DNA of 37,462 nucleotides from a virus, in the IMG/VR virus record IMGVR_UViG_3300020202_000166, positions 1 through 37,462 of that record. One strand, given 5' to 3'. The notes below the pieces were generated by a model. That model did not search any database and was not told where the DNA came from. It saw nothing but the letters and a program-made list of their open reading frames with translations. Below are positions 3,315 to 32,020 of the stretch, one piece after another. The translations under genes were made by a program, and so were the position numbers. How positions within the stretch are numbered: position 1 is the first letter of the stretch; every line of letters starts with the position of its first letter.

Positions 3315-4151
<837 letters not shown>

Positions 4152-4216: not shown

Positions 4217-4226
4217 CAAATTTTTT

Positions 4227-4541
4227 TTATGAAGCCAAAGGCAAATCAAGCTGTTTTAAAGGTTCCGTTCTTATCCTCCAAGCAATCGCTTTCTTTCCGG
4301 TGATCCGGCAAGTCCTTTTCTCTGGACATGGCTCAACTTTTAATCCGTACTCAACTGAGGAAAGCTCAAACCTGCGGGGCCTGACATAATTTGGATCACG
4401 TTTTCCAAGAAATACCGCAAGTTCATAGTCCGTCAGTCCTTGCGGATTCTTCTCAAGAGCCTTTAATATTTCATTATGCCGTTCAGACAGGCCCTTGCGC
4501 TTTTCTTCGTAATAGGATTGGGTGGAGGTTTCTTGGATCAT
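4227..4541 (-). CDS. winged-helix-like small phage protein
   Basis: A 104-residue protein. Residues about 18-60 look like a helix-turn-helix/winged-helix unit (ERHNEILKALEKNPQGLTDYELA, then RPRRFEL), and the C-terminal half is beta-rich with two cysteines (PCPEKRTCRITGKKAIAW). Such proteins occur in phage recombination/ninR-like regions and are often annotated only as hypothetical. Its start overlaps the stop of the upstream NinB-like gene by 4 bases. A DNA-binding role is inferred from the fold alone. Confidence 0.6.
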   Translation of the reverse strand: MIQETSTQSYYEEKRKGLSERHNEILKALEKNPQGLTDYELAVFLGKRDPNYVRPRRFELSSVEYGLKVEPCPEKRTCRITGKKAIAWRIRTEPLKQLDLPLAS

Positions 4542-4954
4542 GCTGCGCCGTAATTTGCCCGGTGTTCATCCCAAAAAGGAGTCGTATCAATCTCAAAAAA
4601 TTCTCTTACGAAAGCGTCAACCTTCTCGAAGTAGTCAGTAAATTCCGACTTCGTTAAATCCGTCGTTGTCACTTGCTCGATACTTTCGTGCTTATCTTTT
4701 GGTAAAATATGCTTCTTTAGGTTTTGATGAAGTTCTTCAGCGAAGAAATGCCCATGATCTTTTAGACCGGCGTCATTAATAAGCCAGTTCAAATAAACCC
4801 AATAAAGTGAGTTTTGAGGCAGGGTTCTGGTGCTTCCCCACTTGACCGTCAGTATTTCTCCAGATCTTGGCAGGGAGCCATTAAACTGTAATTTCGCCAG
4901 CATTTGGCCGTTATCAATCTTCGTGGCGAGGACTTTAGCTTTAACTCTAGGCAT
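4538..4954 (-). CDS. NinB-like recombination-associated protein
   Basis: A 138-residue protein. The segment STRTLPQNSLYWVYLNWL matches the S-x-x-QN-x-x-x-W signature of lambda NinB (Orf), and the C-terminal TKSEFTDYFEKVDAFVREFF plus W-D-E matches the second conserved helix of that family. NinB-like proteins bind single-stranded DNA and aid annealing recombination, which fits the ERF and YqaJ genes upstream. It overlaps the upstream gene stop by one base. I am fairly confident of a recombination role but not of orthology. Confidence 0.6.
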   Translation of the reverse strand: MPRVKAKVLATKIDNGQMLAKLQFNGSLPRSGEILTVKWGSTRTLPQNSLYWVYLNWLINDAGLKDHGHFFAEELHQNLKKHILPKDKHESIEQVTTTDLTKSEFTDYFEKVDAFVREFFEIDTTPFWDEHRANYGAA

Positions 4955-5172
4955 TAGAAATTAACATCGTTATCTGCGCCAAATTCGTCATACTTGGCTT
5001 GTTTCGACTCTTGTTTCTTTTCCTCATAAACATGAATCAAGGTTCCTGGCATGTGGTAAAGCTTGACGTATTGCTTACCGTTTTTTCCGACAAAGGTCTC
5101 GCCAATCCGCTTCCACGAAACCTTTTCTTCCCCATTAGATTCGTATTTTTCAGGCACACATAGATATTTCAT
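4954..5172 (-). CDS. hypothetical small protein (72 aa)
   Basis: The open frame extends to 5244, but I choose the ATG at 5172. It is preceded by AAAGGAAAAAGA, overlaps the end of the coiled-coil gene by only 23 bases, and gives a product starting MKYLCVPEKYESNGEEKVSW. The protein is rich in beta strands and charged residues and ends in an acidic tail (FGADNDVNF), like tails of ssDNA-binding partners. Function unknown; its location in the recombination operon suggests a role there. Confidence 0.6.
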   Translation of the reverse strand: MKYLCVPEKYESNGEEKVSWKRIGETFVGKNGKQYVKLYHMPGTLIHVYEEKKQESKQAKYDEFGADNDVNF

Positions 5173-8008: not shown

Positions 8009-8157
8009 GACTTCACCAATTTCACGCCATTCAGTTCTTGATAAACAATCCCATAAACGGCGTTCCACTCTTTAACCAAGTCTGGCTTTACAACCCGGTT
8101 TATGTCAGCTATCGCTTCTAGGTACATTTTGATTCTTGCGAGTTCTCCGCGATTCAT
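8005..8157 (-). CDS. hypothetical helical protein (50 aa)
   Basis: A 50-residue frame from the ATG at 8157 to a TGA at 8005, with product MNRGELARIKMYLEAIADIN and a second helix. It overlaps the end of the SleB-like gene by 4 bases and the start of the next gene by 4. The tight coupling is the main reason for calling it. Confidence 0.6.
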   Translation of the reverse strand: MNRGELARIKMYLEAIADINRVVKPDLVKEWNAVYGIVYQELNGVKLVKS

Positions 8158-8708
8158 TTTCCACCTCTGTAAAAGACATGCTTGCCAATCGTTGCGGTCT
8201 TAGTCATCTTCTTGGCCCAAGATGGGACTTTAAAATCAGTGGATTCCCAGTGATCCGCACCATTAACAAGATTCGTATGAGCAGATTCTCGCCATGCCTT
8301 TTCAGCGTCTTTCCATACCCATTTAGGGGACTTAGCCAGACGTAGAGAGTTAACGCCATATACACCCTTCAACGTTCCACGGTTACGGATCGCTTCAGCA
8401 ATCGCAACCTTGCCAACATAGGACTCTCCCTCCGCTTCCCCAACAATCGCCCTAATCGCCATCATCCGATCAATCTCAGCGAATCCCGACGAGTTCCAAA
8501 GCATCAGCAGAAAAATTACGAGACTTAGAAACCTGGTCCCAAAGGCTATTTTGTCTGGATGCGTATTCGAGGAGCTTACTGAGGTAAGATTGATCTCCCG
8601 TTTCCTGGTAGGCAGTAATAAGGAGAGCAATCCGCGCTCGGTCAATTTGGGATTGCATCTTGATTTCATCGATAAGCCCTTTGATTCCTGTTTTGTTTGA
8701 CACTTCAT
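8154..8708 (-). CDS. SleB-type cell-wall hydrolase (endolysin candidate)
   Basis: The C-terminal two thirds match the Hydrolase_2/SleB fold: AIVGEAEGESYVGKVAIAEAI (catalytic Glu in the GEAEGE element), RNRGTLKGVYG, then NGADHWES and a final K-H-V-F-Y-R. This family cleaves peptidoglycan glycan strands as a lytic transglycosylase. A hydrophobic stretch (about residues 59-71, FLSLVIFLLMLW, then SSGFAE) is a signal peptide or signal-anchor. The start is uncertain: from 8708 the first ~58 residues overlap another frame (8476-8712); the first ATG after that overlap is at 8504 but would truncate the signal. Export through Sec is likely in either case. Confidence 0.75.
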   Translation of the reverse strand: MKCQTKQESKGLSMKSRCNPKLTERGLLSLLLPTRKREINLTSVSSSNTHPDKIAFGTRFLSLVIFLLMLWNSSGFAEIDRMMAIRAIVGEAEGESYVGKVAIAEAIRNRGTLKGVYGVNSLRLAKSPKWVWKDAEKAWRESAHTNLVNGADHWESTDFKVPSWAKKMTKTATIGKHVFYRGGK

Positions 8709-10433: not shown

Positions 10434-12269
10434 TTAAAAGAAATCCCCTGTCAAAAGAGACATTTTTACATAAGTGTATTCATGGTTGGCATCAGGCCGT
10501 TCCCTTACTGGTCTTAATCTTATAATAGGCGCCCCCAAGAAATTAGGCCGACCGCTAAAAGTAGGGACATATCCTTTAGTATCAGGCACCCATCCTTTTT
10601 GAAAAGACCCAGTTCTTACTAAAAGTCTCTCCTTTTGCTTTACTTTCATCCTTGAATCTAAATACATGGTAGACGGCATAGCTGCATTAAATTTATGGTC
10701 GTGACCTGAGTTGCCAGTAATAAAGACATACCCATTTCTACGCGCAATTAGACTTTCGTTTTTTGTATGAATACACCAGACATCACCGCTGTAATGCGCT
10801 TTACTAGCTCTTATTCTGGAAAAAGGGATATCGGTTGTTGATCGCTGGCAATATCCAATAACCCAGCAGCCGTTTTTAAAGCCGCCTTTTTTAAAATATT
10901 TCCTTGTTCTATAACCATGAATTGCCAAAGCCCACTGTAATCTGTCTATTAATGATTCATCACCTGAATAATATGTTCCAGCCGTGGGATACCTTGCGTA
11001 ACCATCCCCCAAAACAAGATTTTTAAAGAAAATGTCAAATTGTCGCTTGCTTAACTTAAAAACCCAATCAGGGATATTCTTCTTATCAACATATCTAAGA
11101 ACAAGTCGAGCAGATGCTTTTCTAATATGAAAGCTCGTAAGGCCATCGCATTTAACCCAAGACGAATAATCGTATCCAAGCCTATCCAAAATACTTTTAA
11201 TAATAGCTACCTTTTCATGAGATTTTTGATTAATATCAATTCCTTGGCCACGCTGCTTATCATAAATTCTGAAATGGCCTTCCGCTATCAACCATCCAGT
11301 TAATGCTATTTCATCGTCGCTCAAGTGATATTCAGACTCAACTATTCCAGCTAACGGGATCTGTGCTTGACATTGATAATTTACAAATTCAGAAGCATCC
11401 TTTTTAAGCCAATAACCCATTTTCTTTGTTTTGCAATTTTTAAGTCGATAAATAACTCTGTGGTTTGGCGTTAATAACATATCGACATTGCTATTTTTTA
11501 TATGAATCATTTCACCTTTATACGGTTTTTGATAGACATCAGTAGCGGTATCTTCATATATTGATCCGTCTTTATATGAAAATACGGGGTCGCCTTTTTT
11601 AATTTCACCTATAGATTTCCACCCATCTAAAGTAAGGATTTGAGTAGTTTTATCCAAACACAAGTATACATCAGCGTCCCAAACTGCTGTCATATCTTCA
11701 AGAGCATTTAATGAAGATCCTATTCTTCTGCCTCCACCAGCTTTTTTACCGGCTGTATGATGTGCGTAAATATCAACCCCGACAAGATGCTTTTTTCCGT
11801 ACCTGAAAATAAGTCTGATAACAGAAACCCCACCTAGATATTTACACCTTAGGGAATCACACATTTTCATCGTTGAAGTTTGCCCAGAGTCAAATTGATA
11901 GTAGTGGTTCCCTTCAATTAAACCGACCGCTCTATCTTTCATGAATGAGATTTCATCGATAAACTCAAGTGTCCTTTTTGCCATCAAATCATCTAAGGTC
12001 TTGATTGTTGTATCGTGTAATTTAGCGTGATAAAAAGCCTCTCTTTCCGATGTTGAGGCTAGATCGTCGTAGTCTCCTAATCCTAAGTAATAAACCTTCC
12101 CAGTTTCTTCCTGAAGTTTTTTACAGTAGTTTAAATACCCTTTCCACCTGTCCACATCGCAGTTATGCGCGAAGCGGTGAACATCTGAAAATATGCACAA
12201 ATAATAGTCTTCGTTAAAATGCTTTATGGGGATCTCGAAACGATGCACAGTAAATAGTGAATCGCTCAT
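10434..12269 (-). CDS. calcineurin-like metallophosphoesterase interrupted by an intein
   Basis: The 611-residue precursor has metallophosphoesterase motifs in order: SDVH (D29, H31), GLGDYDD (D66), EGNHYY (N121, H122), YAHHTAG (H170, H171). After residue 203 the domain is broken by a 317-residue intein. It resumes at S521 with SGHDHKF, the final G-H-x-H metal motif. The spliced product would be 294 residues. Members hydrolyse phosphodiesters or nucleotides; phage versions may act on DNA ends or signalling nucleotides. The unspliced protein lacks the final GHxH motif in place, so activity probably depends on splicing. Confidence 0.88.
   Translation of the reverse strand: MSDSLFTVHRFEIPIKHFNEDYYLCIFSDVHRFAHNCDVDRWKGYLNYCKKLQEETGKVYYLGLGDYDDLASTSEREAFYHAKLHDTTIKTLDDLMAKRTLEFIDEISFMKDRAVGLIEGNHYYQFDSGQTSTMKMCDSLRCKYLGGVSVIRLIFRYGKKHLVGVDIYAHHTAGKKAGGGRRIGSSLNALEDMTAVWDADVYLCLDKTTQILTLDGWKSIGEIKKGDPVFSYKDGSIYEDTATDVYQKPYKGEMIHIKNSNVDMLLTPNHRVIYRLKNCKTKKMGYWLKKDASEFVNYQCQAQIPLAGIVESEYHLSDDEIALTGWLIAEGHFRIYDKQRGQGIDINQKSHEKVAIIKSILDRLGYDYSSWVKCDGLTSFHIRKASARLVLRYVDKKNIPDWVFKLSKRQFDIFFKNLVLGDGYARYPTAGTYYSGDESLIDRLQWALAIHGYRTRKYFKKGGFKNGCWVIGYCQRSTTDIPFSRIRASKAHYSGDVWCIHTKNESLIARRNGYVFITGNSGHDHKFNAAMPSTMYLDSRMKVKQKERLLVRTGSFQKGWVPDTKGYVPTFSGRPNFLGAPIIRLRPVRERPDANHEYTYVKMSLLTGDFF
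10710..11660 (-). mobile_element. intein with LAGLIDADG homing endonuclease domain
   Basis: Precursor residues 204-520. Block A starts at C204 (CLDKTTQILTLDGWKSIGEI), block B is LLTPNHRVIYR with the T-x-x-H motif, and dodecapeptide-like segments LTGWLIAEGHF and FFKNLVLGDGYARY mark the LAGLIDADG endonuclease. Block F is DVWCIHTKNESLIARRNG and the end is YVFITGN followed by Ser+1. The usual penultimate His is Gly here. The insertion point directly before the extein GHDH motif is a conserved catalytic site, as is usual for inteins. Confidence 0.9.
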
Positions 12270-18894: not shown

Positions 18895-19113
18895 TTAAAA
18901 AGATGTTAACGCTACTCTGTACCGGCTTCCGCCGTATAAAAAAACCAAATAAAGTGTTCCGCTGTTCAATACCACTAAAAATTCAGGATTGTCCTGACTT
19001 GCATCTGGAAATGAATCTAAAACAGGAATATCTTTTAAATTTCCAATTCCTAATGTCTTTTCCATGTCCTCTAATTGTCTCTCAGACTGCATTCCTGGTC
19101 TAAAATTCCACAT
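18895..19113 (-). CDS. small virion-module protein (72 aa)
   Basis: A beta-rich protein starting MWNFRPGMQSERQLEDMEKT and containing PVLDSFPDASQDNPEFLVVL, then YLVFLYGGSRYRVALTSF. The short beta-hairpin C-terminus resembles head-tail or tail-needle accessory proteins in similar places. It overlaps the exported 124-residue protein by one base. Function inferred from position only. Confidence 0.55.
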   Translation of the reverse strand: MWNFRPGMQSERQLEDMEKTLGIGNLKDIPVLDSFPDASQDNPEFLVVLNSGTLYLVFLYGGSRYRVALTSF

Positions 19114-19487
19114 TAACGCACCAAGATTTCAATTTGTTTATCAGAAAACCCTAATGTTTTTAGTTTTTCTCTAAGGTCTTCTTCTTCTGAGATTTCTAAA
19201 ACTTTTTCTTCTTCATCATGTTGCTTCTTTTCTTCATCAATAACGATTTTATTACCTTCTCTTATCCAGTATTTCCTGTCCTCTTGGTTTTCAGGGATAC
19301 TCGATTCATCAGCCTTTACATATGTAAGTCCACCTAGCCCTGAGTCTTTTAAAAACTCCTCTAACGTATCTTCAGAACCAGGAAGATATTTAGCAATAGC
19401 CACAGAATTATTCGGTTTATCAACAAGATAAACTTCCTCTGCGTAAGCGTTAAAAGATAAAAGAATAAGTAAAATTAGAATCATCAT
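19113..19487 (-). CDS. exported acidic protein in virion operon (124 aa)
   Basis: MMILILLILLSFNAYAEE is a Sec signal peptide with a good cleavage site after NAYA. The mature part is very acidic (DEEKKQHDEEEKVLEISEEED) and ends with a helix-hairpin-like LKTLGFSDKQIEILVR. It overlaps the upstream exported fibre-like gene by 4 bases. Its product should reach the periplasm or outer membrane, unexpected for a virion operon. Confidence 0.65.
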   Translation of the reverse strand: MMILILLILLSFNAYAEEVYLVDKPNNSVAIAKYLPGSEDTLEEFLKDSGLGGLTYVKADESSIPENQEDRKYWIREGNKIVIDEEKKQHDEEEKVLEISEEEDLREKLKTLGFSDKQIEILVR

Positions 19488-20830
19488 CGTCTTGCGTCTC
19501 CTACGGCTATCATGCTAACCCTCGCGCTATCGGTTGCTGTGCTTGTTGTGTTTGATTTACAAACTCCGCGAATTGATCCCGCTGCAACGGAAGATGTCAC
19601 AAACTCACCTGCATCCGCTACGTTTTCACATGTTCCAACTACTCCATAGTTGGAATTGTTAAAATCAGAATCAACAGTGCAAGTCCAGTCCCCGGCTCCG
19701 TTATCAACCGTTCCGGAGACGTTGTAAGAATCTAAAATTGTTGCCGAGGCATTAATAACGCAGTACGCCCCGATTAATTCCCTATCAAAAATACCATGAA
19801 CGGTTACAGTGTCCCTTGAAGTAAATAGGCTTGTCGCATCAGTATTAATTGATCCAATAAGCCTGTAATTAGTTACCCCAGAAGGGCCTGTTGTGCTAGT
19901 TGAATAAGTAACAGAAAATGACTTTGTAGAGTCCTGATCCGCAACACCGTAAACATAATATTTTGTAGATCCAGAGATTGATCCAGTATCTAATCCTGAA
20001 ATCCCGTTTGCGGGGTCATCATTTCCTGTTGTAACCGAGATATCTGAGCTTACGGACCTGTATTTTCCGTTTATATAAAGCACTCCCGGAGTAACTTTAA
20101 ATGTCGTAAATCCGTCATAGGAAACAAACGCCCCTCTTGCGAGTCCTACAGGAGTCCTGCCAGCTGGTGAAAAACGTCTGACGGTCGACCCATTAGATAG
20201 AACATCATTTAGATTAGCCTCACCAGCCGCACTTGATATATTTGTAAAAGGACCATTTGTGCAGGAGGTTGTCCTTAAATCTTGAACCGAAACAACCGTA
20301 GAAGAATCCGTTGAGACACGGGCGAGCCTGATAGAGTTAGTTGCTACGGACGGGGCTGCTGCTCCAATCGCAACCTCGGAGTATTGAAAATCTCCATTAA
20401 TATCAATATCAACGTAAGTCCATTTTGAGGCGGTATAAGTATTCGGGGTTGAGCTCGCTTTGTTAATTCTATATCCTCTTGGATAAGCTGTCCCCGATGA
20501 TGTGCTAGTCGTAAGACTCGCCGAAGTACTAGGCAATAGCCCTGTATATACAAATTCACATCCAGCACCTTCATAAGTCCTAATCCTTGGATTGATTTCA
20601 TCGGCCATCTCAGCTTCCCCGATTGAGTCATCCACTACGTTGGCCGCATTTATCGAATTAACACCTCCAATTAGAACCTGGGTAAAGTTTCTATTTAACC
20701 GGGTATGAAAATCCGATGAATAAATGTCATTTTGTACAAATGTGTTATCAAGGCTGGTTACTGCTGAGTAGCAATGGCTATTAATGGATAGTAATGACAT
20801 GATAAGGAACGCAATGAATTTAAATCGCAT
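19484..20830 (-). CDS. exported fibre-like protein (448 aa)
   Basis: I start at the ATG at 20830 (AAAGGTTGAAAACT before it), which overlaps the gp10-like gene by 11 bases; the frame is open further up. MRFKFIAFLIMSLLSINSHC-YSA is a signal peptide. Next comes FHTRLNRNFTQVLIGGVNSI, like the conserved head of phage fibres, then VDDSIGEAEMADEI and long Ser/Thr-rich beta repeats. The composition is like receptor-binding fibres. The C-terminus has several cysteines, unusual for a cytoplasmically assembled fibre but normal for an exported protein. Confidence 0.7.
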   Translation of the reverse strand: MRFKFIAFLIMSLLSINSHCYSAVTSLDNTFVQNDIYSSDFHTRLNRNFTQVLIGGVNSINAANVVDDSIGEAEMADEINPRIRTYEGAGCEFVYTGLLPSTSASLTTSTSSGTAYPRGYRINKASSTPNTYTASKWTYVDIDINGDFQYSEVAIGAAAPSVATNSIRLARVSTDSSTVVSVQDLRTTSCTNGPFTNISSAAGEANLNDVLSNGSTVRRFSPAGRTPVGLARGAFVSYDGFTTFKVTPGVLYINGKYRSVSSDISVTTGNDDPANGISGLDTGSISGSTKYYVYGVADQDSTKSFSVTYSTSTTGPSGVTNYRLIGSINTDATSLFTSRDTVTVHGIFDRELIGAYCVINASATILDSYNVSGTVDNGAGDWTCTVDSDFNNSNYGVVGTCENVADAGEFVTSSVAAGSIRGVCKSNTTSTATDSARVSMIAVGDARR

Positions 20831-22385
20831 AGTTTTCAACCTTTCGGACTTTGTAAAGTTCTCTCGGTTCAATCGAATAACCCTCTATAGATAACCTCTG
20901 CCCTGGAGTTTCACATCCAATCTCTATTTGAATGCTGGACCCTCTAGCATCTACCCCAGGACGCTCAATGTGCATTGATAATGCAGGACCACCAAAAATA
21001 AGACTCTCATAAATGTCATATTCCCCAAAATAACTGTCTTGCTGAATGGATGGATTAAACACACCAGGGAATGCGTACCCTCCAAATGATAGATAATATT
21101 TAAGTTTTGCCTCAAAATATCCAGTTGGACGGAAGAAGACTAGAATCTCAGGGAAATGAAACATCATGTTTGCTGGTTCGCCCATATGAACCCTGGATAA
21201 AAACCGAGTAGGAATTAAAGATCCATCCACACCATTTGAGCTTTTAAGTGTGTTTCCGTTCTCGTAATAAACAAACCCATCCGATTCATCACCCATCAAG
21301 AATTGATTGTTTGCTTGACGCCCGTTTAAAACACATGAAGATATAAACCCGAATGTATGCGGCCCATAAATAGCCGGGGTTCCTTCAGGTTTAAGATTAA
21401 GAATATCTAAATCCAATGAAATATTATTAGTAGTTGAAAATCCCATAGCTAAAGAAATGGTATAAAGATCTCCGTGCACATCCGCACACGCATTTCTTAA
21501 ATTGTTCTTATTTGCTCCCTCTAAATAAGGAGTAATATCATCGGTCAAAAGCCGGCAAGTTGATCCATTAAAGGCATAAATCCCGAGTGGAAATTTATTT
21601 CCAACACCTTGACCTAAGAACCAAATTTCATTTCCCACTTTTTTAATCGTATTCGGGGCCACACATCCTACAGTGGTAGGAGCTTGCTCTAGTCTCCAGT
21701 TTTCTTCGTTTCCAGAGACGTAGTAGATCCAAATTGAGTAAGTATTAAATATAATGAGTTTTCCATATAGAACTTCTCCGCCTTCGGTTCTTTCCCCATC
21801 TTGGAGTTTCATTCTGTCAACATTGGCAGCGTCCCATGTCTCAGGATCGCTTAAATCGCACCAAGTTATCTGTCCCAAAATAGCGTCATCTGAAATTCCA
21901 AACATCCGGTCAATTTCTTTCATGTACACAATAACCCGGAAATTTCCTGGCTCTGTGATTCCTCCTCCAACGTTATAAATAGTATTTCCGCCAAGATATT
22001 TCATGAGCCCATCAGAAACAGAGGCAATATACATAACCCCGTTTCTAATCGTGGATGTAAAAATACTATTAGGAGTTAAGCCGCCCTTTAAAATGGACCA
22101 CTCGTTAGTTTGGAAATTTTTCTTATAAATTCCGTCCTCAAAAGAACATAAAAGCTCAAATTGGTCCGTCTGGTCATTGTAATAAGGCATGATCGCGGTA
22201 ACTTTTCCAGAACCCAAAGATGAGGACTGAAATTTCCTGGTCCCTAAGATTAAATCTAAGCTTTGGTATTGATATCTAAAGTTCTGCATCAAAACGCACT
22301 GTTTCTTTTCAGCAAGTTCTGGTCTCCAAGCTTGGAGCTTTAAATTAATTCCACCCGAAAAATCTAAAACTTCGATGTTTTCCAT
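20820..22385 (-). CDS. P22 gp10-like DNA-stabilisation / tail-hub protein candidate
   Basis: The ATG at 22385 overlaps the stop of the LamG gene (TAATG), giving 521 residues. Features are a beta-propeller-like pattern: MENIEVLDFSGGINLKLQ at the start, then R-x-G-V-M-Y-I-A-S, W-C-D-L-S-D-P-E-T-W-D, G-E-V-L-Y-G-K-L-I-I-F-N and W-I-Y-Y-V-S-G. These are typical of the packaged-DNA stabilisation proteins or tail hubs that plug the portal in short-tailed phages. No signal peptide, unlike its neighbours, which fits a cytoplasmically assembled virion part. Confidence 0.65.
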   Translation of the reverse strand: MENIEVLDFSGGINLKLQAWRPELAEKKQCVLMQNFRYQYQSLDLILGTRKFQSSSLGSGKVTAIMPYYNDQTDQFELLCSFEDGIYKKNFQTNEWSILKGGLTPNSIFTSTIRNGVMYIASVSDGLMKYLGGNTIYNVGGGITEPGNFRVIVYMKEIDRMFGISDDAILGQITWCDLSDPETWDAANVDRMKLQDGERTEGGEVLYGKLIIFNTYSIWIYYVSGNEENWRLEQAPTTVGCVAPNTIKKVGNEIWFLGQGVGNKFPLGIYAFNGSTCRLLTDDITPYLEGANKNNLRNACADVHGDLYTISLAMGFSTTNNISLDLDILNLKPEGTPAIYGPHTFGFISSCVLNGRQANNQFLMGDESDGFVYYENGNTLKSSNGVDGSLIPTRFLSRVHMGEPANMMFHFPEILVFFRPTGYFEAKLKYYLSFGGYAFPGVFNPSIQQDSYFGEYDIYESLIFGGPALSMHIERPGVDARGSSIQIEIGCETPGQRLSIEGYSIEPRELYKVRKVENYAI

Positions 22386-23188
22386 TAAAATACCGTTGAA
22401 GAAATTCTTCTTCTTGCTGTAGTGCAAGCCGTATACTCTGCCGCTGGCCCGCCAGATGGAGGAGTAACCGCAGTACCTTTTACCCATCGAAACTCGTCTA
22501 AGCGCCCATTAAGGTCATCAATAACCGAACTACAATTTGTTCTATCAGATTTACCAAGCGATAAAGAAGCGGCAATATCAGGCCAGGAATCAGAGTCAGT
22601 AAATGTTCCACCAGAAATAGCACTTCCATCAACGTAGAATGTCCAAGAGCTTCCACTTCGTTTTTTAGCTATGTGATACCAAGTTCCAGCCGATGGAACA
22701 AAAGACCCGGCAGAACTTTCCATATTGAAGACAGTTGAGCCACCGCTAGCTGCCGTAAATTGAATACTGTCGTCTGCTCCAGCCTTGTGATAAAAATGCA
22801 CAAAATTACTAGTGTTATTGCATTGCTGGTAGAAAACTTGAATATTGTTTGTGCTTGTCAATGAGCCGTATTTAACCCAAAAATCAATCGTTGCATCTGA
22901 TGCCCCATTAGACCAATCTGCACTATCAGCAGCATTTACCCCATCATCGGTTCCATCCAAAAAAAGTGCTGCAGTTCCAAATTTAGGAGATGTGGTACTT
23001 AACTGAGCGTTATTAACAAAATTAATGGTGTGCGCTGAAGAACTTGAATCGGTAGTCGAAGTTGCTCCGTCTGATCCGTTAAAAGGAAGCATCAACTTAC
23101 AGTCAGTATCGAAGCAGGTATCTGTACTTGCTGCAAAGATCGGGCTACAAATCAAAGTAAAAATAACTAGTAGAATTAATTTCTTCAT
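22385..23188 (-). CDS. exported LamG/concanavalin A-like protein
   Basis: The ATG at 23188 overlaps the fibre stop (ATGA), so the upstream six residues are not used. MKKLILLVIFTLICSPIFA is a signal peptide. Residues about 28-235 form a LamG-like jelly roll: LMLPFNGSDGATSTTDSS, then PKFGTAALFLDGTDDGV, TIDFWVKYGS, GTWYHIAKKRSGSSWTFYVDG and RLDEFRWVKG. This domain binds glycans or other surface ligands. It sits between fibre and hub genes, so it may be a receptor-binding or host-coating adhesin. Confidence 0.85.
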   Translation of the reverse strand: MKKLILLVIFTLICSPIFAASTDTCFDTDCKLMLPFNGSDGATSTTDSSSSAHTINFVNNAQLSTTSPKFGTAALFLDGTDDGVNAADSADWSNGASDATIDFWVKYGSLTSTNNIQVFYQQCNNTSNFVHFYHKAGADDSIQFTAASGGSTVFNMESSAGSFVPSAGTWYHIAKKRSGSSWTFYVDGSAISGGTFTDSDSWPDIAASLSLGKSDRTNCSSVIDDLNGRLDEFRWVKGTAVTPPSGGPAAEYTACTTARRRISSTVF

Positions 23189-24747
23189 ACTCTGTCGTAT
23201 TCCCATAGAACTAATAGAGAATAGTCATCCGTTGTTGGAGAAGGAGTATTAGTGACATCAAATTTAAGACCTTCACCGCTAACCAGTGACCCTCCTGCTG
23301 TCACGCTCACAAAAGCCGCAGCGGTATCACCACTAACGCAAGTCGGGGTTGCATGAGTCATTACGTTTCCACCACCGTCCTCTAATCTAAACTGGGCCGT
23401 TGTGGTTCCAGTTCCCTCATACCTACAGGCAAAGTCTGTAATTGTGATTGCCCGTCTTGGGGCCATGAAAAATAGAAAGTTGTCATCAGTAGCAGAAACG
23501 TCTGGAACGGTTACACTAGCTCCACGTTTAGAGGTTAGAACTTTTGCTGAAGACCCGTATACAATGTCATTGCTTGTCGTATCTTCAGCAATCATCCCGG
23601 CAGTGTTAACAGTTGGATTGGTTCCTGTGTTAATCAATGCCCCTGAAAATAAATAATTAGCAGTCTCATCAATTTGGTTCGGTCCGATTCCGTCATTGTT
23701 AATTGAAATCGCTGCAGCTCCACCAATCACTTGACGAGTCGCAGAGACAGCCACAGGAGATGTAGCTGTTAAATTTCCAGTTGAAAGAGTCGCTTGATAT
23801 CCACTACAAACTTGTGAAGTGTCACAAATAACATTTCCGTTTTTTGTAACAGAAACAGAAAGATCAAGAGACGGGTTATTCCCCGATGTCATGGTCATTA
23901 AATCCGTATAAGATCCTCCGTCCACGTCATAGCCTTGTAATTTAACTGTCTGCGAACTAGCGGCAGGTCCCTTGATTAACCCGGAATTATCAAAACTTAC
24001 GCTTTGAACTCGCGTCATGTTTCCAGAGTCGTCAATGATTACTTGAGAATTATCAATACTTCTCCCAGTTGCTCCTCTAAATCGTGATAACTGGTTATGA
24101 GAAGATGAGGAAGGTCCAGAGACGTTTCCAATCACGTCACCGTTTTTAGTAACCACAGAAGAAAAATCTAAAGAAGGAGAGTTTCCAGATGTTACAGTAA
24201 CTAAGTCCGTATAAGCCGCACCGCTTACGTTATAACCTTGAATTTTTAAAGTTTGGCTCGCTGCCGCCGGCGCTTTAATTGTCCCGGAGTTATCAAAACT
24301 AGCTGATCCGATCCTGGTGATATTCCCAGAGTCATCAATAATAACTTGTGAGTTTTGAACAAGTTTTCCAGTAGTTCCATCAAACCTAGTAACAGCGTTA
24401 TCTGTTGCACTAGACGGCCCTGAAACATCCCCAGGAGAAGATGCAGAAATTCTCGTAGAGGTCCCTGCATCGTTTTGATAATAAAGCTCATTATCAATCG
24501 AGACATACACAGTCCCGTAACTTGAAATAGTAGATGGGGCTTCACCACGCTCTGAAAACCGGATATTCTTAAAAAATCCGTTTAACCAGTTCGTTCCAGA
24601 TTTTCCAACATCATGAGAGTCCGAGCTAGTAGCTAGAACGTCCTGAGAAGCGACAAAATTAGATGTTGGGAGTGGAGTAGGCCAGCTTCCAGCGGTTTTG
24701 TTAAATATTCCTAAGACAAGGATGATAATAAGCAGCTTTTTCTTCAT
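23185..24747 (-). CDS. exported tail-fibre-like protein with tandem repeats (520 aa)
   Basis: MKKKLLIIILVLGIFNKTAG is a signal peptide. Then LATSSDSHDVGKSGTNWLNG, a common entry motif of phage fibre head domains, and two tandem repeats of 101 residues (about 106-206 and 207-307), each with VSGPSS, NSQVIIDDSGN, SFDNSG-IK, SQT-K-QGY. The C-terminal 120 residues are a beta-rich knob (ITDFACRYEGTGTTTAQF ... VLWEYDRV). It overlaps the O-antigen polymerase end by 47 bases. Confidence 0.78.
   Translation of the reverse strand: MKKKLLIIILVLGIFNKTAGSWPTPLPTSNFVASQDVLATSSDSHDVGKSGTNWLNGFFKNIRFSERGEAPSTISSYGTVYVSIDNELYYQNDAGTSTRISASSPGDVSGPSSATDNAVTRFDGTTGKLVQNSQVIIDDSGNITRIGSASFDNSGTIKAPAAASQTLKIQGYNVSGAAYTDLVTVTSGNSPSLDFSSVVTKNGDVIGNVSGPSSSSHNQLSRFRGATGRSIDNSQVIIDDSGNMTRVQSVSFDNSGLIKGPAASSQTVKLQGYDVDGGSYTDLMTMTSGNNPSLDLSVSVTKNGNVICDTSQVCSGYQATLSTGNLTATSPVAVSATRQVIGGAAAISINNDGIGPNQIDETANYLFSGALINTGTNPTVNTAGMIAEDTTSNDIVYGSSAKVLTSKRGASVTVPDVSATDDNFLFFMAPRRAITITDFACRYEGTGTTTAQFRLEDGGGNVMTHATPTCVSGDTAAAFVSVTAGGSLVSGEGLKFDVTNTPSPTTDDYSLLVLWEYDRV
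23827..24432 (-). repeat. two tandem 303-bp coding repeats in the fibre gene
   Basis: Residues 106-206 and 207-307 of the fibre protein align without gaps over most of their length; shared blocks are SGPSS, NSQVIIDDSGN, SFDNSG, SQT, TSGN-PSLD and VTKNG. They are diverged enough that slippage is unlikely to be recent, and they probably arose by duplication. Confidence 0.85.
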
Positions 24748-25912
24748 GTACTTCCTCGTTTTTCAACATTGAAAAGTGTTCGTATAAAACCTTGTTAACC
24801 GCCATTACTGTAAGCATCACCACTGAGAACCGCCCCAAATGAAACGGAAAATTAATCAAAGAACAAAACAAAATTGAGAATAAACTTGATATCCATGCCC
24901 GGTATTCCATGTTATGAGAAAACTTTGAAAACTCTTTGAACCTTTCTTTGATCCACATAAAAATTAGGGCCACTCCAAACGCTCCAAACTCAAAAAAAGC
25001 TTGGATAAACTCGTTATGAACCCAAATCCATTGAATCGGTTCACCATTGTTTTGAATAGTCATTACATTTGTCTTGGCAAATGAGGAAATTCCAAGCCCG
25101 ATAAAAGGATTGGATTTAAGAACATGCGAAAACGCAAAAAACCAAACTTTTGGACGTTCTAAAAATTGACCCGTCGGCATGTCGTAGAGAAAAACGTATA
25201 AACCTGATAAAACAAGCACTAAAAGAGACGAGATCCAGAAAAGTTTTTTATTTCTAAACATTGGATAGATAAGAAATCCGAATGTTAACGCGACAGATAC
25301 CACTGCAACGGATGACTTAGAGAACCAAATCAAAATAAGACATAAAGGAATGGATAAAGGAGTCAGATAAGCGACAAGTGGAAATAAAATAGCCGTGATA
25401 GTCCCTAAATGAGCCGGAAGTTTCATCATCCCAGTAGGATCTGACTTAGGAATCAAATCAGGTCTAATATGCTGGAACACTGGATCAATACCAAACACCT
25501 GAAAAGCACACATGATCCCGTTTATAATCAAAATCAAAGCGGCGAGATTGATTAAAAGATTAGTCTTAGAGGCATCTAAATAACTCACTACCGAGTAATA
25601 AAAAATAAGAGCTGTAAAAATATTAAGTAATGACCTTCTAGCTGAAAGATCCATTGAAATGATGAGAGATGTGAAGAGAACATAAATCACAAAGATAGGA
25701 AAAATCCTGTCTTTAAATTGCCGCCTATGAACCATCAGACACCCAATTCCAAAAACCGCAAATGCCCCATACCTAAAAAATGATTCCTGAATGTTATAGA
25801 GGTATTCAATCGGGTTTCCTTGAAAGTCCTGGTTAACAGCTCGAAAAAACATAGTCGAGACCACAAACACAAAACCCAAAACGAAATTAAAAATTTTAGA
25901 AGGAGTAATCAT
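24701..25912 (-). CDS. O-antigen polymerase/ligase-like (Wzy/WaaL) membrane protein
   Basis: The frame extends to 26101, but I take the ATG at 25912 (MITPSKIFNFVLGF), overlapping the adaptor gene by 17 bases. About ten membrane segments span the 403 residues. In the second half are NPFIGLGISSFA and WVHNEFIQAFFEFGAFGVAL, the P-x-G-x-G and H-N-x-x-x-x ... E-x-G-x-x-G pattern of the Wzy_C/O-antigen ligase family. These inner-membrane enzymes join or ligate surface glycan repeat units. Its position inside the virion operon, with overlaps on both sides, implies late expression. A seroconversion role is inferred. Confidence 0.88.
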   Translation of the reverse strand: MITPSKIFNFVLGFVFVVSTMFFRAVNQDFQGNPIEYLYNIQESFFRYGAFAVFGIGCLMVHRRQFKDRIFPIFVIYVLFTSLIISMDLSARRSLLNIFTALIFYYSVVSYLDASKTNLLINLAALILIINGIMCAFQVFGIDPVFQHIRPDLIPKSDPTGMMKLPAHLGTITAILFPLVAYLTPLSIPLCLILIWFSKSSVAVVSVALTFGFLIYPMFRNKKLFWISSLLVLVLSGLYVFLYDMPTGQFLERPKVWFFAFSHVLKSNPFIGLGISSFAKTNVMTIQNNGEPIQWIWVHNEFIQAFFEFGAFGVALIFMWIKERFKEFSKFSHNMEYRAWISSLFSILFCSLINFPFHLGRFSVVMLTVMAVNKVLYEHFSMLKNEEVHEEKAAYYHPCLRNI

Positions 25913-27083
25913 CGGTATAAGGATAGTTATTAGGTAAATTGCTTCTAAATTCGGTCTGGTCAGAATCTTGTAAGATTGTCCAGTTGTCCGTGTTGTTATC
26001 ATTAGCGATAAGATTTTGAAACATCTGGTCTCTTCGCCGTAAAGTCTCAGATGAAACTTCTTTTTTGTTCCACTCAGTCTGAAGTTTGATATAAAGATCA
26101 AGAGCTAAAAGCGGATGCCACTGCGAAGGGAGCAAAGGCGAGTCTGTGTTTTTGTATAAATAGGGGTGCTTTGATCCAGCTTCGTAGCTAATCGCCTCCC
26201 CCTTTGTCGGAATAGGGTAAAGTTTCACACTTTGAAAGTCTGCCTCCGTCTCTCCTGGATCAAGCGTAATATTTGTAATTAATCCGTTATTTGAAGTAGC
26301 CGTTACATAACCTCCTGTTTTGTCAGACTTTGAAATCCTGACAACCATTTGATAAAAATTAACGGTGGAAACCGAAGTCGCCCCATTTAATTGGACTTCT
26401 TCTTCATACAAAGATCCATTATTTAAGTACCCTAATACGATCCCTTTTTGCTGAACGTCTCCTATCACATAAGAAGCTGTTGAATTATTTGTGCCCTCAT
26501 AAGGAGCATCTAATATTGCAACCGTTGAAGACTCCATTTTTATGATTTGATACCGTCTTTGGTCAGTTCCAACCCTGAACCATCTTCCCAGAACATCAAT
26601 CGTGATAACTCCAGAGCTAAAAACAACTCTGTTTGATCCATAAGTGACGTTAACTGTCCCTGTAGATATGTTCGCAAGAGAAGACTGGAATTTAATAAGA
26701 CTGGAAGCGCTTACTTGAGTTTGAAATCCTCGATATTCTCCGTCCCAAAATATATACGGATCTCCGCTTGATAGTTCATAAGGATGAGTCTTTAAAAATT
26801 CAGTGGATGGTTTAAAAGAAATTCTTCTAATAGGGTCACTTCCGCGCATAGTCCCATTTAAAATTGATTTAACGCCAGCGCAGTATTTGCTTAATGAGTA
26901 CTCTTCTATGTTTTGGGCTGTTTGAAGGTAAAAAGTGCCTTTTTTAAATCCGAAATTCTGATACTCCCAATGCTCCTGTATGATTTCGTTTAAGAAATCA
27001 ATTCCAAGGGACCGGAATGAAAAATCTTTTACGGATAAATCCGCTTTTCTTAATCCTGATGTAACTATGTTTCCAATGTTCAT
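25896..27083 (-). CDS. head-to-tail adaptor candidate (395 aa)
   Basis: It starts MNIGNIVTSGLRKADLSVKD with the N-terminal helical adaptor plan and has beta-rich central segments (TGTVNVTYGSNRVVFSSG, SSTVAILDAPYEG), then a C-terminal helix (PLLALDLYIKLQTEWNKK, SSETLRRRDQMFQNLI). The ends resemble P22 gp4-like adaptors; the middle is an insertion domain. Its ATG follows a G6/C6 hairpin with no visible Shine-Dalgarno sequence. Confidence 0.65.
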   Translation of the reverse strand: MNIGNIVTSGLRKADLSVKDFSFRSLGIDFLNEIIQEHWEYQNFGFKKGTFYLQTAQNIEEYSLSKYCAGVKSILNGTMRGSDPIRRISFKPSTEFLKTHPYELSSGDPYIFWDGEYRGFQTQVSASSLIKFQSSLANISTGTVNVTYGSNRVVFSSGVITIDVLGRWFRVGTDQRRYQIIKMESSTVAILDAPYEGTNNSTASYVIGDVQQKGIVLGYLNNGSLYEEEVQLNGATSVSTVNFYQMVVRISKSDKTGGYVTATSNNGLITNITLDPGETEADFQSVKLYPIPTKGEAISYEAGSKHPYLYKNTDSPLLPSQWHPLLALDLYIKLQTEWNKKEVSSETLRRRDQMFQNLIANDNNTDNWTILQDSDQTEFRSNLPNNYPYTDDYSF

Positions 27084-27116: not shown

Positions 27117-27614
27117 TTAAATGACCGTGATGTAAGCGTCAGTCGTAGCTGCAGCTGTCTCAGTCTTTAAAGCAAAGGCAACGTTGGGATCACGGCTTGC
27201 TACCGTATTTCCAGCGTAAATACCCCCACCTAAAGCACCAGCCGTCGAAGAAGCAAACAACCTGTCGCCACTCGTGATAGCACCAGCGAGCCGGACTTTT
27301 CCTTTACCACGCACCAAGATCATGCCTTCATCACCCGTTGCGATGGTGTTTTGAGCAACACCAGCAATTAGGTAGGCATCACCCGAGGCTGTGGCAACAC
27401 GGACTTGAAACGATGAATCATCAGCACCTGTTGAGGATGTGAAGTCGTATCTCAATACCGTTCCGGAAATAACCGGGGTTGTTTCGCTATTTGAAACTTT
27501 AACCACTGTCCAGCACTCATCACTTTGATTAGATTGCGAGGTCTTGCAATTCAAAGCCCACGCATTCTGAGTCAAAAGGAGAAGCGCAATTACGAGAAAT
27601 AAAAATTTCTTCAT
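27117..27614 (-). CDS. decoration-like protein with signal peptide (165 aa)
   Basis: MKKFLFLVIALLLLTQNAWA is a signal peptide with cleavage likely after AWA. The mature part has the beta-tulip-like plan of capsid decoration/DUF2190-like proteins: G-T-V-L-R-Y-D, DAYLIAGVAQNTIATGDEGM, V-R-G-K-G-K-V-R-L, ITSGDRLFASSTAGALGGG and a final FALKTETAAA. It sits directly after the major capsid gene, the usual decoration gene place. The signal peptide conflicts with that role. Confidence 0.7.
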   Translation of the reverse strand: MKKFLFLVIALLLLTQNAWALNCKTSQSNQSDECWTVVKVSNSETTPVISGTVLRYDFTSSTGADDSSFQVRVATASGDAYLIAGVAQNTIATGDEGMILVRGKGKVRLAGAITSGDRLFASSTAGALGGGIYAGNTVASRDPNVAFALKTETAAATTDAYITVI

Positions 27615-27626
27615 TGTGTCCTCCTA

Positions 27627-28619
27627 TTAACCTGTGATGTTAGTGATGACCCCGTTAAGATAAGGGGCATCGGTACAGAGCTGGCCAGCAGTAAGAACCT
27701 TAGCGATTCTCTTATCTTGGTCAGCAGGCTCGATGAACTTACCTAACGAGAAGTTGCGTTCTTTGGAAATGCAGAGGAAGATACCGCCGTCCGTTTTTGG
27801 TTTCGCCACACGAAGCATGTACATGTGGTTAGGAAGCAGGTTGCTTCCGTCAGAAAACACAACGGGACAATCTCCCATGAAAACGATGCTCTTAAAACCA
27901 GCGCTCGCTAGTTTCTTATCCGCACCTTCCATCACAAAACGTTCGTTCTGTGTTAAAGAAAGCTGGAAAAGAACCCAGATTGCTTTGGTCGTAATCGCAT
28001 AATTCGGAGAACGGTTTCCTTTCGTGCAGTCAGCATATAACCGGGTCATGGCGTTACGGCCAGCTTGATTCGTGTTAAATGCGGTAACTGCAGTTGAGTA
28101 AACCTGGTTGCGGAGTTGGGCGTAGGTAACACGGGAAAGACCGCCGATAGATCCTGTCGTGGGATCATCCGCGACAAGATTCTGAAGACCATTCCAGTCT
28201 TTTGAGTTATTCCCAGTTCCATCACCTAAAAGCATGTTCTCGAACTTATTTCCAGTCGTTACTTCTGACTGTTTCATGCGTCCTTCTAAAACATCCGCAG
28301 CAGCTTCCGGGCCGGTGTTCATCACTTCTTCCAAGCCGTCAATGACGACAGTGGAATAGAATTGTTTCCAGCTAAACGTTAGCGGCTGTAGACCTGCGGG
28401 ACGGCTCACGTTGAGCGGATCATCCCCGTAATAAGATCCCGCGTTTCCATCATCAAGGATCACTGGAAAGGTAAGTTCCTTACCACCGTTCACCAGAACT
28501 TTTCCTTCTTTCTCAGCAAACTTTAAGAAAGTTGGATTCTGTTGACTTAGGTTGTCTTGAAACTTCTTCTCAATCCGAGCATGGGTTGACGCGAGAATGG
28601 CATCTAAGTTGTAAGCCAT
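27627..28619 (-). CDS. major capsid protein (HK97-fold type)
   Basis: A 330-residue protein with MAYNLDAILASTHARIEKKF, a long N-arm, W-K-Q-F-Y-S-T-V-V-I-D-G-L-E-E as the spine helix region, NKFENMLLGDGTGNNSKDWNGLQNLV, AMTRLYADC, then GFKSIVFMGDCPVVFSDG and an axial C-terminal beta region. This pattern is familiar from phage major capsid proteins near this gene order (scaffold upstream, decoration downstream). It is probably processed or assembled around the scaffold. Strong assignment from sequence style and synteny. Confidence 0.88.
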   Translation of the reverse strand: MAYNLDAILASTHARIEKKFQDNLSQQNPTFLKFAEKEGKVLVNGGKELTFPVILDDGNAGSYYGDDPLNVSRPAGLQPLTFSWKQFYSTVVIDGLEEVMNTGPEAAADVLEGRMKQSEVTTGNKFENMLLGDGTGNNSKDWNGLQNLVADDPTTGSIGGLSRVTYAQLRNQVYSTAVTAFNTNQAGRNAMTRLYADCTKGNRSPNYAITTKAIWVLFQLSLTQNERFVMEGADKKLASAGFKSIVFMGDCPVVFSDGSNLLPNHMYMLRVAKPKTDGGIFLCISKERNFSLGKFIEPADQDKRIAKVLTAGQLCTDAPYLNGVITNITG

Positions 28620-28630
28620 TTTCTACATCC

Positions 28631-29500
28631 TCATGTTTGAGCCCCAAGGAAGATTTCCTTGTAGCTCATATCGCTATCAGTCTTCTGTGGGTTCTTGGGA
28701 TTGATCTTTGGAGGATTGGTTTCTTTGGATTTATCCGCGCTCTTGAGAAGTTTTGACCGAAGCTGCGTCTCAAGTTCTCCAATAGTGGCATGTTTATAAG
28801 CTTCATCGAGAACTTGCATGTCGTTCCAATCCGGATGTTTTTTAGTGATGGCGTCAATAAAAACTCCCATCGCTTGATCTACTTCCGGAGTTACCTGAAA
28901 AGACTTATTCTCTTGTTGCTTTTTTGCCACCCAGGATTCCCAGGTTTTCTGAGACTCGGCACTTAGCTTCTGCATTTCACGTTCCTCAATGGACTGCGTG
29001 AATTTTGAAAGCTGCTCTTCGAGAGTCGCGATTTTCTGCTCTAAAGCTTGAGTGTTTGAGTCTTTAGCCTGGTTACTTGGTGCTTCTGGTTTAAAATTTC
29101 CTGACAAGATCGCATTGATAACTTCTTGAGCCTTTGGGTCCCGGTAATAACTTTGAACGAGTTTTCCAAGGGCCTTGATTTCATCAATTTGCGGTTGTCT
29201 TCCAAAAGATTCCTCTAAAGATTTCCTGAACTCAGAGATTTCCTGAGTTTTTTTAGTGTAGTCCTGTTGGCGAAGGTATCCTTTTTGCCATTCCAAAATT
29301 TCCGAGAGTTTCGCTTTTTTTCCCTCCTGCAAAGTGAACTCTGGATCTTGTGGAGCTGGCTGGACCTCTGCTTCAGGCTGCACTTCGTCAGTAGCTTGCG
29401 GGGTACTGGCTTCCCCGGCGAGTATCTCCCGGTATGAAGAGTCCTCAGAAGTGGCCGCCTCTGGGGTTGTTCCTTGCTCCGTTTCGATTTGCTCAGACAT
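28631..29500 (-). CDS. capsid scaffolding protein
   Basis: I start at the ATG at 29500 (GAAAGGGAAAAATCA before it) for 289 residues. The N-terminal third is acidic and low complexity (TPEAATSEDSS, PEAEVQPAPQDPEF), followed by the EGKKAKLSEILEWQKGYLRQ block and QDYTKKTQEISEFR common in phage scaffold/capsid assembly proteins, and a coiled-coil middle. It lies 11 bases upstream of the major capsid gene. It should build the procapsid and leave. Confidence 0.8.
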   Translation of the reverse strand: MSEQIETEQGTTPEAATSEDSSYREILAGEASTPQATDEVQPEAEVQPAPQDPEFTLQEGKKAKLSEILEWQKGYLRQQDYTKKTQEISEFRKSLEESFGRQPQIDEIKALGKLVQSYYRDPKAQEVINAILSGNFKPEAPSNQAKDSNTQALEQKIATLEEQLSKFTQSIEEREMQKLSAESQKTWESWVAKKQQENKSFQVTPEVDQAMGVFIDAITKKHPDWNDMQVLDEAYKHATIGELETQLRSKLLKSADKSKETNPPKINPKNPQKTDSDMSYKEIFLGAQT

Positions 29501-29545
29501 TGATTTTTCCCTTTCTGTGACTCCCTTGCTTCGAGGGTTGGTCAA

Positions 29546-29919: not shown

Positions 29920-30242
29920 TAGCCAGCCTCAACTAACCCCAATGCTTTAGCAGAACGTTTTTCATCTGACCTTGACTCCACCAATCCACCAAGACCAATA
30001 TTGAAATAAGGCTTAAAATCATTCAATTTAGTTTGTCGGCCAATTTCACACTGATGGCACGCTCTAACCTTGTAATTCTCAACAATCCAAATTCCATGTT
30101 CACAAAGCTTATGTTTTAAGTTGGTTCCGAACCTGACTTTTCTAGCCTTTTGGGCTCCAGTTTCGCCTCTTTGAGAATGAACCGCCATTTCAACAGCCTT
30201 ACTTTTCCCATATTTTTTAACCATATCCTGAAATGGAATCAT
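29919..30242 (-). CDS. hypothetical basic protein with Cys/His motif (107 aa)
   Basis: The first 40 residues are basic (MIPFQDMVKKYGKSKAVEMA, ARKVRFG), followed by CEHGIW-x9-ACHQC, a C-x-H ... C-x2-C layout that can bind zinc. It is translationally coupled to the portal gene (ATGA overlap). It could be a packaging accessory protein; no family was recognised. Confidence 0.6.
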   Translation of the reverse strand: MIPFQDMVKKYGKSKAVEMAVHSQRGETGAQKARKVRFGTNLKHKLCEHGIWIVENYKVRACHQCEIGRQTKLNDFKPYFNIGLGGLVESRSDEKRSAKALGLVEAG

Positions 30243-32020
30243 ACTCTTTGCGCTAGTCCTAATTCAGTTGCCAAGGGATCACGTTCTCCAGTGATAGCCG
30301 CTTCTTCTTGGGCAGGAGGTATGCCTTGGGGAGTATTCATAATCCCTAGAGCGTTCTGGAGGTCCATAATCCCTTGGTCAGCATTTCGGATTGCCATCGA
30401 ATCCATAAGTTTTTCAATCCAGAACTGGGCGTTTAATGTTTTCCCTGCTCTATTTAAGATTGGTTCTAATTTTGTAAGCATTCCCAGTGCGTCAATGATC
30501 TGGCGTCTGAATACATCTTTATTTTGGGCCTGCATGGACTCCACATCGACATCCACTATTACACTCGATGTAAATCCTTCTTTTCCAACCTCCTGAACTA
30601 TTTCTTCCTCAACCATCAATCCAGTATTAGGGTCTTGAACTTCGACCGTCTTTGTAACAGACATCGTGCCGTTTATCTGTGTAAGGATTCCAACAATATC
30701 CAGGACTATATCCTCGATAAAATCACGGACATCATCAATTCTTGCTTCTATGTCAATAGTCTCGCCAGTGGCAATAATCTTTGCTTCAGTAGCAGAGTCC
30801 GGCTTTGCGTCCTGTGCACCTCTTGTTAACCCACTTTTTGGCGCAAGCTCAGAAAGTAACTGCCTTGAAACAGTAAAGAAGTTTGTAACATCTTGATTGA
30901 CTTGAGCCCGTTCTTTCTCGTAAAAAAGTGTGGATATAGGGGTCCCTGCTTTATTGGAAACTCCAACCCACTCAAGATCATTATTTGATTTGAGTTTTTC
31001 AGCTTCCTTATCAGTTATTTTCCCTGAATCGTATATGGTTTTAGGATTACATCGTTTGACGTGGTTTAAATAAACCTTCCACCACTGATCTACAGCAGAT
31101 AACTGAGACTCCCATATCCAAGGATCTCCATTAGGGTAAGGAGAATCATCATCTAAGGGATTAAAGACTAGGAATTTAATAGGGTATCCAACATGCCCTT
31201 TGCTGTATTCAACCTGCTGAAGAGGGCTCGTGCAGCTCTTAGAAAAAACAAGAAGCTGATATTTCCCGTCTTTTTTCTTAGGTTTAATAAAACAGTAGTG
31301 AATTAAGACATATAACTCTTCAGAATCGTCCGTGATATCTGAGTTTTTGGAAATCTTGCTATATTTCTCACCTTGTAATCGGTCCCTTTGTGCCTGGTCC
31401 CAGTTTGGGACTTCTTTTGCCTCTTCGAGAGGCATGATAATGTCAAATCCGATCCAAGGAGAATCTTGGAAATCATAGAAATCAAAACCCCGTGGAAATC
31501 TAACTAAATCAGGGCGAAGTCTTTTGATATAAATATCATTCTCTAAAACAATTCTTTCCTGAGTAGGGACTGACTCACCAGTTATGGGATCAATCGTAAA
31601 TCCAGCCGGTTTATCATCGTAGATATAATCCGTATATACACACCCAAACCCGCCTAAATAAGCGTCCCAAATTGACCTTTCAATGGTCCTTTTTACTTTC
31701 AGGTCTTTTAGGATGTCATTGACCTTAACTTCCGTGTTTTCAACATAATCATGGTTTTGTTCTTCACGGGCCTTTAAATTGACATTCGGAGACTTGAAAT
31801 AAATGGAGTTTTTAAGGGCCGTTCCAATCGAATAGACAAGATTCACCTGTTTATGGCTCATCCTATCTGTATTTTTATTGCTAACTAGATGTTCAGATCG
31901 GAGTCTTTTCTTAGCGATTAGATACTTGAAAAGAAACTCCTGACGCATAAGCTTTTCGGAAGACTTAAACTTACTTATCCACTTTTCAACAATCAAATCA
32001 TCTTTTACTTCTTCAATCAT
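30239..32020 (-). CDS. phage portal protein
   Basis: A 593-residue protein with a helical start (EKLMRQEFLFKYLIAKKRLR), the tryptophan-rich core FDFYDFQDSPWIGFDIIMPL, a WESQLSAVDQWWKVYLNHVKR segment, a stem-helix region DVTNFFTVSRQLLSELAPKS and an acidic C-terminal barrel with VDVDVESMQAQ. This length and plan match dodecameric portals of short-tailed phages. It forms the DNA entrance vertex and docks the terminase, whose genes are directly upstream (8-base overlap). Confidence 0.88.
   Translation of the reverse strand: MIEEVKDDLIVEKWISKFKSSEKLMRQEFLFKYLIAKKRLRSEHLVSNKNTDRMSHKQVNLVYSIGTALKNSIYFKSPNVNLKAREEQNHDYVENTEVKVNDILKDLKVKRTIERSIWDAYLGGFGCVYTDYIYDDKPAGFTIDPITGESVPTQERIVLENDIYIKRLRPDLVRFPRGFDFYDFQDSPWIGFDIIMPLEEAKEVPNWDQAQRDRLQGEKYSKISKNSDITDDSEELYVLIHYCFIKPKKKDGKYQLLVFSKSCTSPLQQVEYSKGHVGYPIKFLVFNPLDDDSPYPNGDPWIWESQLSAVDQWWKVYLNHVKRCNPKTIYDSGKITDKEAEKLKSNNDLEWVGVSNKAGTPISTLFYEKERAQVNQDVTNFFTVSRQLLSELAPKSGLTRGAQDAKPDSATEAKIIATGETIDIEARIDDVRDFIEDIVLDIVGILTQINGTMSVTKTVEVQDPNTGLMVEEEIVQEVGKEGFTSSVIVDVDVESMQAQNKDVFRRQIIDALGMLTKLEPILNRAGKTLNAQFWIEKLMDSMAIRNADQGIMDLQNALGIMNTPQGIPPAQEEAAITGERDPLATELGLAQRV

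Follow-up and report, generated by a model that had tools for sequence, protein, structure and literature searches.

The 37,462-base virus record IMGVR_UViG_3300020202_000166, referred to here over its full length as the window, contains a gene that resembles those of capsid decoration proteins in family and position, but whose product begins with a putative export signal. This raises the question of whether a protein directed out of the cytoplasm could belong to the virion of a tailed phage, since tailed phage virions are, to our knowledge, held to assemble wholly in the cytoplasm. Sec signal peptides (SP) do occur on virion proteins of filamentous phages (the coat proteins pIII and pVIII), but there the coat is assembled at the membrane during extrusion and, unlike in tailed phages, there is no cytoplasmic head. 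P1 Sim-type exclusion proteins are phage-coded and Sec-exported; they are encoded outside the virion gene block and have no decoration domain. Among the titles and abstract openings covered, which included few subscription journals, no signal peptides were reported on tailed-phage decoration or fibre proteins. A review of decoration proteins (PMC7602432) contains no occurrence of signal peptide, signal sequence, periplasm, disulfide, secret or DUF2190, and in passages of PMC8144416 signal peptides are named for cellular targets and in the methods.

The decoration-like gene and its signal peptide

The first-pass annotation had placed the gene directly after the capsid gene, and this was accurate: the ORF, on the minus strand, lies downstream of the capsid gene (27627-28619) and its ATG is separated from the capsid stop codon by 12 bases. 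The product has 165 amino acids. The relevant features are as follows.

27117-27614, minus strand: decoration-like (Phage_cement_2) protein with a predicted N-terminal Sec signal peptide, identified by PF09956 match, SP score and orthologues with SP
27620-27625, minus strand: Shine-Dalgarno sequence AGGAGG of the decoration gene, in the upstream sequence 5 bases ahead of the ATG
27555-27614, minus strand: signal peptide MKKFLFLVIALLLLTQNAWA, codons 1-20, with predicted cleavage before L21; A|LxC junction kept in three of three orthologues

The protein begins with MKKFLFLVIALLLLTQNAWA followed by LNC, which corresponds to a Sec/SPI-type signal without a lipobox: an MKK start is followed by a nine-residue core (mean Kyte-Doolittle 3.6) and an A-W-A cleavage site. 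Signals were called by a home-made heuristic (charged start, hydrophobic core, -3/-1 rule) rather than by SignalP, and under this rule the n-region charge, hydrophobic core and AxA site were all present. The score of 6.09 was reached by none of 5000 shuffles of residues 2-31; among internal Met starts in the window ORFs (n = 106), six passed the rule and none scored 4.6 or more, while shuffled N-termini of all 54 window ORFs passed in 4.0% of trials.

Searches with capsid and fibre sequences recovered two further distinct members of this lineage, G001/G002 (capsid 65% identical; these two are identical over 20,507 bases compared and were counted once) and a contig, L033 (34%). L031 was left out of the counts because its sequence matched the window at 100% identity across 11,235 bases. 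Viral scans with the Wzy_C, decoration and stabilisation genes returned the same members only, and the lineage therefore rests on three distinct viruses. In both relatives the decoration gene occupied the corresponding position and carried an SP, so that the signal was present in 3/3 orthologues. The signal sequence had diverged among them while its character was retained: all had the A|LxC junction, Ala at -1, Ala or Ser at -3, and exactly two cysteines, at mature positions 3 and 14 or 15. Cleavage was predicted after Ala in all three, with Cys at +3 and not at the +1 position of a lipoprotein (SPII) signal. On this evidence the ORF, its start site and its predicted signal peptide were confirmed as real, and the 20-residue signal peptide of the first-pass annotation was upheld by score, shuffles, Shine-Dalgarno sequence and conservation.

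Two readings would deny the signal its usual function. That it is inert, or an artefact of annotation, is hardly credible; the SP rule was home-made, but a Shine-Dalgarno sequence precedes the ATG, no other Met occurs before residue 98, signal character was kept in divergent sequences, and cysteine parity (below) is a further point against it. Very unlikely, too, is an uncleaved N-terminus anchoring the protein in the membrane, as had been proposed earlier: the highly hydrophobic core would suit an anchor, but in all three orthologues the core is followed by the same type of predicted cleavage site, and the cysteine pair, whose +3 Cys is not that of a lipobox, begins just past it.

The decoration-like identity of the body received marginal support from sequence tools. 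The PF09956 (Phage_cement_2) match was 24.3 bits against a cut-off of 24, exceeding it by 0.3, and PHROG head families were matched at E values from 8.8e-4 to 0.26; to this extent the description 'decoration-like' stands. Placement is as expected for Phage_cement_2, since the gene adjoins the major capsid gene in the window, L015 and L033. The G002 orthologue had no Pfam match, and that of L033 matched another cement family, PF22758, below cut-off. A beta-rich fold, as first suggested, was not established: AlphaFold2 models had mean pLDDT of 32.0 with two sequences and 45.7 with three, nothing in PDB or BFVD matched these low-confidence models at E 0.001 or better by Foldseek, and the decoration profile matched solved structures at E 1.6 at best. 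A profile of two orthologues showed no significant similarity to the Mx8/Mx9 decoration proteins or to a 259-aa group. When a profile of the three mature proteins was used, SP-less phage cement proteins and Mx8p49 ranked above secreted cellular proteins, in a set of 13 sequences and at low bit scores (13.7 at best).

The protein is therefore like Phage_cement_2 decoration proteins in its over-cut-off match and its gene position directly after the capsid gene, but unlike them in having its own conserved Sec signal and cysteine pair. Mx8p49 and Mx9p82, virion structural proteins of Myxococcus phages, occupy the same place after a homologous capsid protein and show weak profile similarity, but they begin directly at the mature domain, with no SP and no cysteines. 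Scanning 294 genomes of one phylum with PF09956 gave 10 places in seven genomes. None of the eight phage-type proteins had a convincing SP (L069 passed weakly at an alternative start, L067 at an internal start only, and none of the others in the right frame), so that phage cement genes with an SP are unusual in that set. The other two were long proteins, L071 and L070; the latter (L070:1096-2316, 24.0 bits, at the cut-off) is a 406-aa protein of a bacterial genome with a clear SP and the look of a secreted cellular protein, and suggests that exported host proteins may contain domains of the cement type.

Signal peptides across the virion block

The decoration gene was not alone in carrying a signal: beyond what the first-pass annotation had described, it is one of a set of SP-bearing genes in the virion block, and a membrane Wzy_C gene lies in the midst of this set. 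The genes of the window block are listed below; all are on the minus strand.

30239-32020, minus strand: portal-like protein, no SP; homologous to portal-position genes elsewhere (E to 2e-12 outside the lineage), no family match
28631-29545, minus strand: scaffold-like protein, no SP; PHROG 3927, E 1.5e-7
27627-28619, minus strand: major capsid protein, no SP; PHROG 9953, E 2.6e-53, and relatives
25896-27083, minus strand: adaptor-position protein, no SP; 26-34% identical to the genes at this position in SP-less L018-L021, L023 and L024
24701-25912, minus strand: multi-pass membrane protein of the Wzy_C (O-antigen ligase) family; PF04932, 41.5 bits against 31.7; its ATG at 25912 overlaps the adaptor gene
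23185-24747, minus strand: SP-bearing fibre-like protein; SP score 4.69, orthologue L015:12891-13190 with SP
22385-23206, minus strand: SP-bearing LamG/concanavalin-like protein; PF13385, 59.2 bits, SP score 4.97, five Cys
20820-22487, minus strand: stabilisation or head-closure-like protein, no SP; PHROG 3287, E 6e-14, and PHROG 578 (head closure)
19484-20839, minus strand: SP-bearing fibre-like protein; SP score 3.61, orthologues with SP; start at TTG 20839 or an ATG just inside (MRFKF)
19113-19487, minus strand: small protein with an SP by eye, MMILILLILLSFNAYA; its orthologue L015:16093-16494 is called by the heuristic

The signal of the last gene was missed by the heuristic because it contains no Lys or Arg. 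The L033 orthologue of the 19484-20839 fibre had a match to the Mtd second domain just under cut-off. Gene order was common to the three phages: portal, scaffold, capsid, decoration, adaptor, Wzy_C, SP-bearing fibre, LamG (window only), stabilisation, SP-bearing fibre and SP-bearing small protein. No second gene lay between capsid and adaptor in any of them, and so the earlier proposal of an export-targeted, repurposed copy of a decoration protein gained support as to export, given the SP and cysteine pair in two divergent relatives, but not as to a repurposed copy.

Within block limits of our own choosing, 19 of 64 virion-block CDS carried an SP (window 4/20, G002 8/23, L033 7/21); these 19 leave out the Wzy_C membrane protein, which also passed the rule in the window, and the window gene at 19113. 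The corresponding value for five related phages (Mx8, ppBjS10J-1, ctMlz233, BUCT555 and ctKR88) was 0/95 (singly 0/14, 0/18, 0/18, 0/19 and 0/26), a highly significant difference (Fisher p = 5e-9). Carriers in the lineage were the decoration protein, fibre-like and LamG-like proteins, and small proteins; an SP was lacking from the capsid, portal, scaffold, adaptor and stabilisation proteins. Set against the controls, this pattern indicates that the signals mark the former genes and not the head-neck core. In seven partial viral loci with capsid identity of 29-34%, no decoration, adaptor, stabilisation or fibre gene passed the rule; the few ORFs that did were short, overlapping or read from an alternative start. 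The window genes that follow the stabilisation gene included no recognisable candidate for an SP-less fibre; this is weak evidence, because most of the genes there lack a family match. Homology between the N-termini of SP-bearing and SP-less fibres had seemed plausible by eye and was dropped after hhalign returned E 0.35 over five columns. A tail-spike gene of a distant capsid relative (L004:8878-11217; PHROG 2234, E 5.5e-27) has a long hydrophobic start that is SP-like by eye and fails the rule.

Comparison of the stabilisation profile with the 294 genomes gave three distant matches. One, L050, lay in a prophage-like block whose decoration and fibre genes were all without SP; another, L051, was a short contig (C88 of G074). 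L051 encodes an SU10-type head-tail adaptor (2853-3587; PF24175, 56.4 bits) with a strong SP and a stabilisation-like protein (3606-5147) with a weaker SP and a C-terminal repeat that many other proteins of that phylum share. If the L051 adaptor gene is functional, export of outer parts only is not a general rule. At least three other PF24175 genes in the 294-genome set had no SP, the family search not having listed the L051 genome.

The capsid profile found no relative in bacterial and archaeal genomes, a search for the host in plasmids gave no match, and relatives of the SPFH protein pointed three ways as to host. This phage-coded SPFH/Band 7 protein (926-1771) shares 48% identity with a protein of a Woesearchaeota assembly. 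Elsewhere in the window, a phosphoesterase-like gene, so judged by eye (10434-12269), seems to be interrupted by an intein (LAGLIDADG_3 over cut-off, HINT-type match below it), a DNA methylase (3315-4151; PF01555) has a long mid-protein run of Cys and then four Gly, and an endolysin-like protein (8154-8708; PHROG 938, E 1.2e-5; orthologue L027:527-1078) has a hydrophobic, export-like stretch about 60 residues in.

Cysteine parity and the Wzy_C gene

Among mature SP proteins (n = 20, including window 19113), the number of cysteines was even in 16, odd in one (the window LamG protein) and zero in three. This differed significantly from the SP-less genes of the same blocks (n = 40, leaving out window 16787, judged by eye to be a membrane protein, and the three Wzy_C genes), where 9 were even, 12 odd and 19 zero (Fisher p = 0.0015), and from position-matched SP-less decoration and fibre genes of other phages (n = 32; 6 even, 12 odd, 14 zero; Fisher p = 3e-4). 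Because orthologues are not independent, parity was also counted by family, where 7/8 were even (p = 0.035). Decoration genes did not stand out in cysteine density, which was 1.23 per 100 aa in those without an SP. The even counts agree with disulfide pairing outside the cytoplasm and with folding in an oxidising periplasm.

The Wzy_C gene lay between adaptor and fibre in 3/3 SP phages (PF04932 at 41.5, 47.6 and 35.3 bits against a cut-off of 31.7), and it is this place between phage genes that distinguishes it from other members of its family. The other loci compared yielded no Wzy_C relative; L023, an SP-less locus, has its adaptor gene next to its stabilisation gene. An H-N-E motif and other residues were invariant in the three enzymes. 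The family includes WaaL, Wzy and PglL-type transferases, and no relevant NCBIfam subfamily, PglL-like included, was matched. The enzyme may act on host surface glycans or on glycans carried by the exported proteins. Ser+Thr averaged 20% in SP proteins and 12% in SP-less genes, an enrichment confounded by fold, because 20-25% is also attained by several fibres elsewhere that lack an SP. In L042 (MW202524.1, 3147-11978), a phage whose adaptor gene is related, an annotated glycosyltransferase and methyltransferase block follows the capsid gene.

Export and the virion

Sec export of the decoration protein is very probable, and the chances are about even that the exported proteins serve on the virion once the cell has lysed. 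The explanation that we tentatively prefer, and to which we would give slightly less than an even chance, is that outer virion proteins are exported, fold with disulfides in the periplasm and are then used on the virion, while the head and neck core stays cytoplasmic. The decoration-type protein would be Sec-exported and cleaved after Ala20; it would leave the cytoplasm together with the fibre-like and LamG-like proteins, all folding in the periplasm with disulfides, and capsid, portal, scaffold, adaptor and stabilisation proteins would remain behind. Docking would take place when lysis mixes the two compartments. We infer this step, and virion use generally, because of gene position, the weak similarity by profile to cement proteins without SP and the failure to recognise an SP-less fibre; decoration proteins of other phages are able to bind finished capsids.

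The main rival, which we regard as somewhat unlikely, is that the SP proteins are not on the virion but are displayed in the envelope of the host and would there, together with Wzy_C, alter the surface, through superinfection exclusion, adhesion or lysogenic conversion. The window encodes an integrase, so lysogeny is possible; Wzy_C-family enzymes act on surface glycans, LamG and fibre-like folds suit surface proteins, and the secreted cellular protein L070 of a bacterial genome has a marginal Phage_cement_2 match. However, the SP genes lie scattered among those for head and neck within a single late-type block of conserved order, the decoration gene occupies the place of a virion structural protein (Mx8p49) in related phages, the decoration profile is unlike the secreted cellular protein, and the phage would then seem to be without fibres. 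A further proposal, quite improbable, makes the exported outer-layer proteins substrates of Wzy_C, acting as a protein O-oligosaccharyltransferase of the kind represented by PglL, so that the virion surface would be glycosylated in the periplasm. The constant place of Wzy_C in the SP phages, the failure to find a relative in the other loci compared, the invariant motif and the Ser+Thr content agree with this, but no NCBIfam match names the enzyme, the family also holds O-antigen ligases and polymerases, and the Ser/Thr enrichment has the confounding noted above.

In its widest form, the preferred explanation of export followed by use on the virion would describe a two-compartment tailed phage, with head and neck made in the cytoplasm and a coat that is exported, disulfide-bonded and perhaps glycosylated by Wzy_C, the two being joined at lysis; as a whole, this is unlikely. 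A conserved lineage whose surface proteins bear export signals and have their cysteines in pairs would mean either that the rule of wholly cytoplasmic assembly is broken or that a phage has converted its coat and fibre proteins to envelope proteins of the infected cell, and a categorically new assembly route is possible.
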